A stretch of DNA of 64,000 nt from Candidatus Thiodiazotropha sp. CDECU1 (lineage in GTDB: Bacteria > Pseudomonadota > Gammaproteobacteria > Chromatiales > Chromatiaceae): contig NZ_OY734020.1 in the NCBI RefSeq assembly GCF_963455295.1, positions 930,001 to 994,000 of the forward strand. Direction: 5' to 3'. Below the pieces are notes generated by a model. It was not told the DNA's origin. It ran no database searches and saw only the letters and a list, made by a program, of their open reading frames with translations. The position numbers and the translations under genes were made by a program. Positions 1,741 to 5,907 of the stretch are shown here, piece by piece; position 1 is the stretch's first letter; each line of letters opens with the position of its first letter.

Positions 1741-2085
1741 ATGAAAAAGATCGTTCAAGCTTCTGCAGCTGCTGCATTGATCATTGCTTCCGCTTCCGCT
1801 TCCGCATGGTGGGGCGGCCCAGGCTACGGTAACCGGGGTTGGGGCAACGACGGTTGGGGCGACGGCTGGGGTGATGGCTCCGGTGACTTCAGCTTTGGTA
1901 TGAGCGGCAGTGCCCGTGGTTCCGGCTATGGTCGCGGCAACAACTACTATCGTGACTACTATGGTTATGGTCCCTATGGCTATGGCGCACCTTATGGTTA
2001 TGGTGCCCCTTATGGCTATGGCTACCCACCAGTAGCTCCGGTTGCACCGGCAGCTCCTGCAACACAGGCTGCACCTGCTAAGTAA
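1741..2085 (+). CDS. Exported Gly/Tyr-rich sulfur-globule-like protein (short form)
   Basis: The product has 114 residues. It starts with a clear Sec signal peptide (MKK, Ala-rich core, predicted cut after ASASA at residue 22) and the mature chain begins WWGG. The mature part is dominated by Gly, Tyr, Trp, Asn and Asp, with tandem [15 protein letters not shown] units, and ends in a Pro/Ala tail. Low-complexity, exported GYG-repeat proteins of this size resemble SgpA/B/C, which coat periplasmic sulfur globules in Allochromatium. The function is therefore inferred from composition and export; there is no enzymatic motif. A strong GAGGAGAG ribosome site precedes the ATG. A related gene follows 95 bp downstream, and both share the MKKI...NA/SA-WWG start, which suggests duplication. 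It could instead be another structural Gly-rich envelope protein. Confidence 0.65.
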
Positions 2086-2180
2086 AGCGGTTAAATACTT
2101 TAGCACAAGGACTTCTCGGCACAGGGACGTGCAAGGGCAGACAGCGTGGTTTTACACTAAAAAATTCTGGGTACTAAAAA

Positions 2181-2861
2181 ATGAAAAAGATTTCTATCAT
2201 TGCCGCGGCAATCGCCATGGCAGCCTCATCGGCAACCGTTAACGCTTGGTGGGGCAACGATTGGAGTGACGATTTCTTTGGTGACGGTTTCGGTGCTGGT
2301 GATTTCGACTTCAATTTTAACATGAGTGCACGCGGTAACGGTTATGGCCGCGGCTACAACAACTATCGCAACTACTATGGCTATGCTCCCTACGGATATG
2401 CGCCATACGGTCATGCCCCTGTTGTTCCTACAATGACCGAAGAGCAGAAGGCTGCCATGGAAGAGCAGCAGAAGGCTTTTGCCGAACAACAGAAGGCATT
2501 TGCCGAGCAACAACAAAAGGCCTTCGAACAGGCGGTTGCTGCGCAACGTGAATATGCCGAAAAATATAGTGCTGATCCCCGTGCTGCTATGGAAGCTGAA
2601 ATGAAGGCCTTCCAGGAGCAGATGCAGGCTCAGCGTGATCAGATGCAAACCCGTTATGACGGTATGGCTCCTGCCAGACCAGAGATGCCCGAAGCCATCG
2701 CTAAACGTATGGAAGAGTCTCAGGCTCGCCGTGACGAGATGGTCAAAGAGATGGAAGCGCGTCGCGCTGAGGCTATGAAAATGATGGAAGAGCGCCGCAA
2801 AGTTGCTATGGAGCGCAAACCCTTCGAAATGCCTGTGTTCGAGTCTCGCAAAGACATCTAA
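2181..2861 (+). CDS. Exported Gly/Tyr-rich sulfur-globule-like protein with long helical tail
   Basis: The product has 226 residues. Residues 1-22 are a signal peptide of the same length as in the preceding gene, and the mature start WWGNDW matches it. Residues 23-90 are a Gly/Asn/Tyr-rich block (GNGYGRGYNNYRNYYGYAPY) clearly related to the short paralogue. Residues 95-226 are quite different: Glu, Gln, Lys, Arg, Met and Ala rich, with KAFAEQQ repeats, and predicted by eye to be a continuous charged coiled coil. The gene therefore looks like a sulfur-globule-type domain joined to a rod. The rod might link globule coat proteins to each other or to the cell wall, which is speculation. There is no good Shine-Dalgarno before the ATG (only ACTAAAAA), so translation may depend on the upstream gene. 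A strong terminator follows 29 bp after the stop. Confidence 0.65.
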   Translation: MKKISIIAAAIAMAASSATVNAWWGNDWSDDFFGDGFGAGDFDFNFNMSARGNGYGRGYNNYRNYYGYAPYGYAPYGHAPVVPTMTEEQKAAMEEQQKAFAEQQKAFAEQQQKAFEQAVAAQREYAEKYSADPRAAMEAEMKAFQEQMQAQRDQMQTRYDGMAPARPEMPEAIAKRMEESQARRDEMVKEMEARRAEAMKMMEERRKVAMERKPFEMPVFESRKDI

Positions 2862-2890
2862 GAAGAATACCACTGCAGGCTACTAGTGAA

Positions 2891-2923
2891 GGCGCTACCG
2901 GTTAAACCGGTAGCGCCTTTTTT
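2891..2923 (+). terminator. Rho-independent terminator after the sulfur-globule-like pair
   Basis: A perfect 12-bp stem (2891-2902 with 2906-2917, GGCGCTACCGGT paired to its complement) closes a 3-nt loop and is followed directly by six T. This is one of the strongest terminators in the window. It separates the exported-protein genes from the pyruvate dehydrogenase genes. Confidence 0.9.
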
Positions 2924-3252: not shown

Positions 3253-5907
3253 ATGCCGACTAGACCCGATACCGATCCGCTAGAGACACAGGAGTGGCTG
3301 GATGCCTTGGAGGCCGTACTCGAGAACGAAGGTGTGGATCGCGCCCACTTTCTCATTGAGCGCTTGGTTGATAAGGCCCGCCGGTCCGGTGCTTACCTGC
3401 CGTTCAGTGCAAACACGGCCTATGTGAATACCATACCGGTGACCAAGCAGCAGCGTTTCCCCGGCGATCGGGCCATGGAGCGTCGGATCAGGTCTTTCAT
3501 ACGCTGGAACGCCATGGCCATGGTGGTCCAGGCAAACAGGATATCCACAGAGTTGGGCGGTCATATTTCCAGTTTTGCCTCCGGTGCCACCCTATTCGAT
3601 GTGGGCTTCAACCACTTTTTCCACGCCCCCAGCAAGGAGCGGGACGGTGATCTGATCTTTTTTCAGGGACACTCCGCGCCTGGGGTATATGCCAGGGCAT
3701 ACCTGGAAGGCCGCCTGAGTGAAGAACAGCTCTACAGTTTTCGACAGGAGGTGGACGGTCAGGGCCTCTCGTCATATCCCCATCCCTGGTTGATGCCGGG
3801 ATTTTGGCAGTTTCCGACAGTGTCGATGGGTCTGGGCCCATTGATGGCTATCTATCAGGCGCGATTCATGCGCTATCTGCATGATCGTGGTCTGTTGAAT
3901 ACGGATGAGCGTAAAGTCTGGGCATTCTGTGGAGATGGTGAAATGGATGAGCCGGAGGCGCTCGGTGCCATCTCCCTGGCTGGGCGCGAGCGTCTGGACA
4001 ATCTGGTATTTGTCATTAACTGCAATCTGCAACGCCTGGATGGACCAGTGCGAGGCAATGGCAAGATCATTCAGGAGCTTGAGGCCGTATTTCGTGGTGC
4101 AGGCTGGAATGTGATCAAGGTGATCTGGGGTGGTTATTGGGATCCGCTTTTTGCGCGGGACAAGAACGGCATCCTGCTGAAGCGTATGGAGGAGTGTGTC
4201 GATGGCGATTACCAGGCATACAAGGCCAAGGGTGGCGCATATACACGCGAGCACTTCTTCGGTAGATATCCGGAACTCGATGAGATGGTCGCCAATATGA
4301 CCGATGAGGATATCTGGCGTCTCAACAGAGGTGGACACGATCCGCATAAGGTCTATGCGGCCTATGCGGAGGCGGTGTCACACAAAGGACAACCTACAGT
4401 TATTCTGGCCAAGACAGTTAAGGGTTACGGTATGGGTGTGGCCGGTGAGGGTCAGAATATCACCCACTCCCAGAAAAAGATGGGAGAAGCGGCCCTCAAG
4501 GCGTTTCGTGATCGTTTCAACATCCCGATCTCGGATGATCAGATAAGCGCCGCGCCCTTTTATAAACCACCGGCAGATAGCCCTGAAATGCAATATATGC
4601 ATGAGCATCGCCAGAACTTGGGTGGCTTTCTGCCGCAACGCCGGACCAAACTTGAGCCGCTGCAAGTGCCGACTCTGGAGGAATTCAAGGCCCTGTTGGA
4701 AGGCAGTGGGGAAAGGGAACAATCCACAACCATGGCATTTGTACGCCTGCTCAACATGCTGGTACGGAATAAAGTGGTTGGGAAGCAGATTGTTCCCATC
4801 GTGCCTGATGAAGCGCGTACCTTTGGCATGGAAGGCATGTTTCGCCAGTTGGGTATCTACTCCTCGGTGGGGCAATTGTATGAGCCGGTAGATGCCGACC
4901 AGGTGATGTTCTATCGGGAGGACAAGAAGGGGCAGATTCTGCAAGAGGGCATCAACGAAGCGGGTGCGATGTCTTCCTGGATAGCTGCCGCCACCTCCTA
5001 CAGTAATCACGGGATCAGCATGATCCCATTCTATATCTACTATTCGATGTTCGGCTTTCAACGGGTTGGCGATCTGGCTTGGGCGGCAGGGGATATGCAG
5101 GCCCGGGGTTTCCTTATCGGTGGTACCGCCGGTCGCACCACCCTGGCGGGAGAGGGGTTGCAACATCAGGACGGACATAGCCATATCATTGCCGGGACGA
5201 TACCGAACTGTGTCAGTTATGATCCGGCCTTTGCCTATGAATTGGCAGTGATTGTTCAGGATGGCATGCGGCGTATGTACCAAGAGCAGGATAATGTTTT
5301 TTACTACATTACCGTGATGAATGAAAACTATCTGCAACCCGCTATGCCTGAGGGAGTGGAGGAGGGCATAGTTCGCGGTTTCTATCTGCTGGATAGTGGT
5401 GGCAAACATAAGCAACGAGTGCAACTGCTGGGGAGTGGCACTATCCTGCGTGAAGTGATTGCCGCAGCGGAGTTACTTGAAAAAGAGTTCAAGGTCTCTG
5501 CGGATGTATGGAGCGTTACCAGTTTTAATGAATTGCGTCGTGACGGCTTGGATGTCGAGCGATGGAATACCCTGCATCCGGAAGAGAAACCAAAGTTAAG
5601 TTATGTCACTGAAAAACTAAGCGGTCAGAAGGGGCCTGTGGTGGCAGCTACAGATTATATTCGCAGTTATGCGGATCAGATCCGTCCCTTCATCAGCGCA
5701 AATTACAGTGTGTTAGGCACGGACGGATTTGGCCGGAGTGATATGCGCAGCCAGTTACGCAAGTTTTTTGAGGTAAACCGTTACTACATCGTGATCGCTG
5801 CCTTGAAGGCGCTTGCTGACCAGGGTGAGATCAAACCAGACAAAGTAAGTCAGGCGATCAAGAAGTACAAAATCGATCCAGACAAGCCCAACCCGGTTGA
5901 GGTTTAG
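3253..5907 (+). CDS. aceE: Pyruvate dehydrogenase E1 component, homodimeric type
   Basis: The product has 884 residues against 887 in E. coli AceE. It decarboxylates pyruvate with thiamine diphosphate and transfers the acetyl group to the lipoyl arm of E2. The thiamine-diphosphate/Mg motif begins with GDGEMDEP near residue 227 and runs on to the NCNLQRLDGP asparagine. The N-terminal TAYVNTIP and RRIRSFIRWNAMAMV blocks and the GHSSGAP-like segment (GHSAPGVYARAYLEGR) are typical of this family. So are the C-terminal transketolase-like blocks GRTTLAGEGLQHQDGHS and ATDYIRSYADQIRPF. The gene is followed 105 bp later by aceF. The ATG has only a weak purine-rich site (CAGAGAATAACG). The frame is intact over the full length. 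Confidence 0.97.
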   Translation: MPTRPDTDPLETQEWLDALEAVLENEGVDRAHFLIERLVDKARRSGAYLPFSANTAYVNTIPVTKQQRFPGDRAMERRIRSFIRWNAMAMVVQANRISTELGGHISSFASGATLFDVGFNHFFHAPSKERDGDLIFFQGHSAPGVYARAYLEGRLSEEQLYSFRQEVDGQGLSSYPHPWLMPGFWQFPTVSMGLGPLMAIYQARFMRYLHDRGLLNTDERKVWAFCGDGEMDEPEALGAISLAGRERLDNLVFVINCNLQRLDGPVRGNGKIIQELEAVFRGAGWNVIKVIWGGYWDPLFARDKNGILLKRMEECVDGDYQAYKAKGGAYTREHFFGRYPELDEMVANMTDEDIWRLNRGGHDPHKVYAAYAEAVSHKGQPTVILAKTVKGYGMGVAGEGQNITHSQKKMGEAALKAFRDRFNIPISDDQISAAPFYKPPADSPEMQYMHEHRQNLGGFLPQRRTKLEPLQVPTLEEFKALLEGSGEREQSTTMAFVRLLNMLVRNKVVGKQIVPIVPDEARTFGMEGMFRQLGIYSSVGQLYEPVDADQVMFYREDKKGQILQEGINEAGAMSSWIAAATSYSNHGISMIPFYIYYSMFGFQRVGDLAWAAGDMQARGFLIGGTAGRTTLAGEGLQHQDGHSHIIAGTIPNCVSYDPAFAYELAVIVQDGMRRMYQEQDNVFYYITVMNENYLQPAMPEGVEEGIVRGFYLLDSGGKHKQRVQLLGSGTILREVIAAAELLEKEFKVSADVWSVTSFNELRRDGLDVERWNTLHPEEKPKLSYVTEKLSGQKGPVVAATDYIRSYADQIRPFISANYSVLGTDGFGRSDMRSQLRKFFEVNRYYIVIAALKALADQGEIKPDKVSQAIKKYKIDPDKPNPVEV

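Follow-up and report, generated by a model that had tools for sequence, protein, structure and literature searches.

Tandem sulfur globule protein genes in Candidatus Thiodiazotropha, one joining a coat segment to an SgpD-homologous helical rod

Two neighboring genes of Candidatus Thiodiazotropha sp. CDECU1 probably encode exported proteins of the envelope around periplasmic sulfur globules, and the longer product unites an SgpA/B-type coat with a rod homologous to SgpD of Allochromatium vinosum. The genes lie in a stretch of 64,000 nucleotides (contig NZ_OY734020.1, positions 930,001 to 994,000, forward strand), which is called the window in the following. The match to the sulfur globule proteins (SGPs), the homology to SgpD, the conserved gene order and the predicted helix were all established by computation. 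The SgpA/B coat type and SgpD, which have been treated as separate, thereby meet in a single chain, which speaks for a function of the SgpD rod within the coat. Moreover, the range of SgpD-like rods now reaches beyond purple sulfur bacteria to Sedimenticola and to symbionts of lucinids, tubeworms and Solemya, in which their role is open to testing. A conserved hairpin in the intergenic spacer suggests how the carbon-storage regulator might act on sulfur storage, a link that can be tested.

The short protein would act as an SgpA/B-type coat protein, and the mature long protein would begin with a Gly/Tyr coat segment that leads into the SgpD-homologous helical rod. The coat segment may embed the long form in the envelope of the sulfur, and the rod, polar and almost balanced in charge, would stand on or lie along the outside of the globule, where it might, as a brush or spacer, hold globules at a distance from one another and from the membrane. 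Both genes are probably co-transcribed, and binding of CsrA to the spacer hairpin would set the amount of the long form.

The gene pair and its sulfur globule signature

The short gene (1741..2085, + strand) encodes a protein of 114 residues and the long gene (2181..2861, + strand) a protein of 226 residues. Both pass the gathering score of 26.7 bits for PF17228 (Sulphur globule protein), the short protein with 79.7 bits and the long form with 48.9 bits. In the long form the match at residues 22–93 includes the coat segment (residues 23–83; 2247..2429, + strand), which is rich in Gly, Tyr, Asn and Phe and predicted to be disordered. It is followed by the rod (residues 84–226; 2430..2858, + strand), about 143 residues rich in Glu, Gln, Lys, Arg, Met and Ala. 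The preliminary description, which had reported exactly these open reading frames as adjacent sulfur-globule-like genes, the second with an added Glu/Gln/Lys/Met-rich helix of about 130 residues, is confirmed in its observation of tandem SGP-type genes of which the longer has a helix-rich extension. Its statement that the proteins share a 22-residue signal peptide is correct for the length and for the WWG start that follows the signal-peptide-like residues in both proteins (by eye), but loose for the sequence, as 10 of the 22 positions are identical. Likewise, the KAFAEQQ repeats that it mentioned comprise two exact copies, at residues 98 and 105, and a third that is degenerate.

The two open reading frames are 95 bp apart. 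A scan for transcription signals found no terminator-like stem-loop between them and no sigma-70-like promoter upstream of either gene. An intrinsic-terminator-like stem-loop of 15 pairs followed by a T run was found 3′ of the long form (2888..2920, + strand), which is weak by count alone with one found compared to 2.0 expected in shuffles. Further downstream lies an open reading frame of 884 residues (3253..5907, + strand), which is aceE-like by its sequence and is a syntenic neighbor of the pair of short SGP and rod genes. A search of NCBIfam gave no match for the short protein and three chance-level matches for the long one, and the plasmids searched contained nothing that matched the long form. 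The long form and a protein of a Ctena orbiculata symbiont MAG (L036) are 100% identical across 226 residues; the identity to a protein of Ca. Thiodiazotropha endolucinida (L038) is 91%.

That the genes are of the sulfur globule type, as had been proposed, is borne out by the PF17228 scores, by the dsrA-positive genome of the source and by the way in which the family tracks dsrA, a gene that is only a proxy for the oxidation of stored sulfur. In the genome of the source, a single contig of 4.46 Mb, four SGP genes pass the Pfam cut-off, dsrA passes its own, and csrA is present. In a sample of 274 genomes of the class, dsrA over the cut-off was found in 35 of 43 genomes with an SGP (E ≤ 0.001) compared to 52 of 231 without (Fisher p = 2.5e-13), and four of the eight class genomes with an SGP and without dsrA over the cut-off have a partial dsrA. 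In a sample of 146 genomes of the window's family, dsrA over the cut-off is absent from 12 of 16 SGP-less genomes compared to 13 of 130 with an SGP, and an SGP is absent from 12 of 25 genomes without dsrA over the cut-off compared to 4 of 121 with it (p = 5e-8), the overlaps of dsrA and SGP having been tallied by hand from listings and then tested. SGPs thus accompany dsrA, some fusion carriers without dsrA over the cut-off excepted (as an example, G055, which is 94% complete), and a concentration of the homologues in organisms that never store sulfur, which had been named as the finding that would speak against the assignment, was not seen in these samples.

Homology of the rod to SgpD

SgpA, SgpB and SgpC of A. 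vinosum are not known to have a rod. They have masses of 11–13 kDa according to a passage of PMC10386293, and the window's pair resembles them in its signal-like N-terminus, aromatic mature start, Gly/Tyr repeats, PF17228 match and dsr-bearing genome. The preliminary description did not name SgpD, the fourth envelope protein, which the rod resembles. In PMC10386293, SgpD is reported as the most abundant globule protein of A. vinosum, SgpD-mCherry co-localizes with the globules, and the strain without SgpD has no globule phenotype, with size and number unchanged.

The sgpD gene of A. vinosum was located via the terminator printed in a passage of PMC10386293, which has one match in the 146 genomes. 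The open reading frame at this locus (L143) starts, by eye, with a 22-residue signal followed by W; the printed promoter lies upstream and the next open reading frame follows 216 nt on, as printed, while the terminator lies 56 nt past the sgpD stop compared to 45 nt in that passage. The SgpD protein is identical in L143 and G124, and the neighbors of sgpD are, by eye, a response-regulator-like and an efflux-adaptor-like open reading frame.

Homology between the rods of the long form and of SgpD was shown computationally. In a single blastp comparison the window's long form matched SgpD with E = 1e-7 and 30% identity over 132 columns. Alignment of a profile of 19 long forms to SgpD with hhalign gave a probability of 98.2 and covered the signal, the W and the helix regions, leaving the Gly/Tyr segment as a gap. 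Furthermore, a rod HMM built from 19 long forms, with SgpD not included, scored 64.9 bits on SgpD compared to maxima of 1.7 bits in 1000 full shuffles, 14.8 bits in 1000 shuffles within 20-residue blocks and 9.4 bits for reversed sequence. Used as a genome query at E ≤ 0.001, SgpD recovered 31 of the 34 genomes with coat-less rods and 21 of the 45 with fusions, missing 24 of the latter including the window's own genome and all five sampled congeners, so that in these genomes the evidence for the link to SgpD comes from the profile, the pairwise match and the gene order.

The long form has in common with SgpD the 22-residue signal, the W at the mature start and an EQ-rich helix followed by a second stretch, of R-x-E-M type, next to the detectable homology. 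SgpD differs in its short stretch between W and rod, its Pro-rich center and the position of its gene beside the response-regulator-like and efflux-adaptor-like open reading frames. The distance from W to rod has a median of 13.5 residues in coat-less rods (18 rows) compared to 66 in fusions (49 rows), values for which a regular expression dropped 20 of 87 rows including SgpD, which was itself read by eye. The Pro-rich center is much reduced in fusions, with a median Pro content of 4.7% in fusion rods compared to 13.3% in coat-less rods. For SgpD a Pro-rich center with a P-X2-P pattern is described in a passage of PMC10386293; by eye, the window's rod contains one P-X2-P (PEMP), and the long form is therefore filed as SgpD-homologous and not as SgpD proper.

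Distribution and gene order

Coat-rod fusions occur in at least 45 of the 146 sampled genomes of the window's family, and the earlier impression that such a fusion is unusual has to be given up. The long form found matches in 86 of these genomes, short SGPs included. From the listed matches of the long form and of SgpD that reached or lay near the rod, 92 stretches were picked in addition to the window, which makes all fusion counts lower bounds. When the 3906 open reading frames of these stretches were scanned with the rod profile, at least 87 matched, at least 53 of them fusions (coat E ≤ 1e-10) and 34 coat-less, one of the latter being a 74-residue fragment at a contig edge (L214) that was excluded from the rod tree. 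Seven stretches (L224, L225, L258, L259, L260, L261 and L264) have no open reading frame over the rod threshold and stand outside the rod counts; in the genome of L224, an SgpD-like open reading frame was noticed by eye only (L171). Counted by genome among the matches listed, fusions are present in 45, coat-less rods in 34 and both in two, G014 and G097, the co-occurrence in G097 resting on the contig-edge fragment.

In a separate collection, fusions are carried by symbionts of lucinids, Lamellibrachia, Escarpia and Solemya velesiana, by Sedimenticola, including the culturable S. selenatireducens (DSM 17993 and BK-1), and by a Thiolapillus brandeum MAG. The idea of a rarity of one strain is ruled out by these carriers together with the family counts. 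SgpD is called almost restricted to Chromatiaceae in a passage of PMC10386293, with exceptions including the Escarpia laminata symbiont; the sequence of this symbiont examined here carries a fusion (L053). A passage of PMC10952691 names sgpD within a globule-protein module that is called present in two other thiotrophs. A literature search covering titles and the beginnings of abstracts, mostly in non-subscription journals, found no description of the fusion or of the hairpin.

Among the matches listed, 48 of 53 fusion loci have a short SGP no more than 600 bp upstream, 29 of the 53 have aceE no more than 1500 bp downstream, and 28 have both neighbors. The aceE gene is not adjacent in the other 24 fusion loci, and at least 1500 bp of room was available in 49 of the 53. 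Coat-less rods (34 loci) have a short SGP upstream in five and aceE downstream in five, aceE not being adjacent in 29 including A. vinosum sgpD. Both neighbors are present in L219 and L227, and these coat-less rods in the order short SGP, rod and aceE back the link to SgpD independently of sequence. In a midpoint-rooted tree of the rods (86 rows), four label changes between fusion and coat-less rods were counted, with 37 of 83 inner branches unresolved; a first tree of 67 of the 87 rows, the rest lost to the regular expression for the signal peptide, had two.

Several single loci are recorded in addition. In G014, a fusion and a coat-less rod (L218 and L219) each adjoin a short SGP. Five genomes have two fusions, each with its own short SGP (L192/L193, L196/L197, L202/L203, L208/L209 and L212/L213); three of the pairs have one copy at aceE and two pairs have none there, within the stretch examined. 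In L148, L154, L156, L163 and L164, coat-less sgpD-like genes adjoin an open reading frame that is presumably glutamate-cysteine-ligase-like, forming a second recurrent neighborhood.

Nature of the rod and alternative readings

AlphaFold2, run on 31 sequences, predicted helices at residues 87–129, 133–162 and 171–211 with pLDDT blocks of about 60–83, in a model that is weak overall (mean pLDDT 57.5, pTM 0.23, residues 1–83 under 50). The preliminary description had called this extension a coiled-coil rod, a designation that is not supported. In one simple test of heptad hydrophobic periodicity on three stretches, picked before the structure model, 224, 500 and 483 of 500 shuffles were as high, and the mature chain contains no Leu, no Cys, two Ile and six Val. 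A canonical coiled coil was rejected for the lack of a heptad signal above shuffles and of Leu. A true coiled coil that di- or oligomerizes and thereby cross-links coats or tethers globules to one another would agree with the long predicted helices, with two KAFAEQQ heptads in register and with the discussion of SgpD as coiled-coil in a passage of PMC10386293. However, the same passage regards coiled-coil prediction as unreliable, globule size and number were unaffected by the loss of SgpD, and together with the heptad test and the residue content this makes such a coiled coil unlikely. As neither a heptad signal nor Leu or Cys is present, a polar helical brush or spacer, to which the 30 acidic and 26 basic residues of the window's rod would belong, is the likelier form.

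The assignment as envelope proteins with an SgpD-homologous rod competes with two further readings. The likeness of the rods might arise from biased composition only, the long form being an independent fusion of an SGP with a helix: both rods are rich in E, Q, K, R, M and A, the blastp identity is just 30%, the SgpD query misses 24 of 45 fusion genomes including the window's among the matches listed, and A. vinosum sgpD as well as 28 of the 33 other coat-less loci lie away from aceE. We hold this for very improbable, since shuffles that keep the local composition stay far below the score of SgpD (at most 14.8 compared to 64.9 bits), coat-less rods occur in the order short SGP, rod and aceE in L219 and L227, and fusions and coat-less rods nearly exclude each other by genome. 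No more credible, and ranked last, is an exported structural protein that sits off the globules, for example as a spacer that separates the membrane from the cell wall in the periplasm, a role that such a rod could in principle serve. The coat segment matches SGPs, an SGP gene is located just upstream in nearly all fusion loci (48 of 53 among the matches listed), and the relative SgpD sits on globules according to a passage of PMC10386293, all of which point back to an envelope protein of the globule.

A candidate CsrA/RsmA hairpin in the spacer

The 95-bp spacer contains the hairpin GCACAGGGACGTGC (2119..2132, + strand; stem GCAC/GTGC, loop AGGGAC), a putative CsrA/RsmA-type site with GGA in its loop, which is unchanged in six of six aligned congeners and lies 60 nt before the start codon of the long form. 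A stem-loop with ACARGGA and GGA in the hairpin loop corresponds to the CsrA/RsmA consensus. A second motif of this kind (ACAAGGA; 2105..2111, + strand) is situated 16 nt upstream of the hairpin's motif, with a matching second site in three close relatives (L174, L175 and L176). Across the sampled spacers, 38 places with the motif precede the first possible start by 8–128 nt, only two of them by less than 36 nt.

ACA[AG]GGA with a four-pair stem was found in 27 of the 51 spacers that separate the short SGP gene from the rod gene (25 of 44 genomes). It is absent from all 50 regions upstream of the short SGP and from all 35 upstream of aceE, and both strands of all loci together (1.51 million bases) contain it 43 times. 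The spacers in which the motif was counted are also those that served to define it, the controls being these two locations, shuffles and pair counts. The strict hairpin sequence is present in 24 of 53 spacers compared to 0.6% of shuffles, and a loose definition of a GGA hairpin was uninformative (39 of 53 spacers compared to 34% of shuffles). Pairing was analyzed in 25 rows selected as motif-bearing, which biases the result towards structure: 92% of the cells are paired, with the outermost pair open in 8 of 25 rows. In the same chosen rows, changes on both sides of the stem amount to 12 cells compared to a shuffled mean of 4.6, with 0 of 500 shuffles as high, and the number of pair types was reached by 274 of 500 shuffles. 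The change of an inner C-G to U-A occurs in five rows of one genus (g4) and represents one event.

The conserved spacer hairpin suggests post-transcriptional control of sulfur storage. The site resembles CsrA/RsmA hairpins and TwoAYGGAY (RF01731) in its ACARGGA with GGA in the hairpin loop and differs from them in being intercistronic. TwoAYGGAY is proposed to bind CsrA in a passage of PMC4333381. In PMC13137333, csrA heads Table 1, which lists highly transcribed genes of Ca. T. endolucinida, with about 78,000–85,000 median TPM in three hosts and rbcS higher in one. In the window's own genome, the 14-base hairpin pattern occurs at 12 places, three of them within TwoAYGGAY matches of 44.3 bits (gathering score 43) and of 41.9 and 40.6 bits (below gathering). 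The fit to the consensus, these overlaps and the abundant csrA transcript make direct control of the rod gene by CsrA through the candidate hairpin a plausible hypothesis. Alternatively, the stem-loop might be an RNA-processing hairpin.

A wider proposal holds both that SgpD is a coat-stripped branch of a broader coat-plus-rod family and that the operon is a direct CsrA/RsmA target via the hairpin. We advance this combination tentatively, as one that we doubt somewhat more than we believe. If true, the coat-plus-rod family would span chemosynthetic symbionts and free-living sulfur oxidizers, and the Gac/Rsm switch would determine how much plain coat there is relative to rod-bearing coat, and hence the mode of sulfur storage.

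Elsewhere in the genome of the source, the two weaker of the three TwoAYGGAY-like matches surround the hairpin pattern at C1:2634534 (L269, 41.9 bits) and C1:1415482 (L267, 40.6 bits). At C1:4137463–4137974 (L273–L275), three copies of the pattern follow each other at an exact spacing of 249 bp, the middle one in the match of 44.3 bits, and this tandem looks like CsrA-sequestering RNAs. A weaker TwoAYGGAY match of 36.3 bits lies two periods downstream of the tandem.
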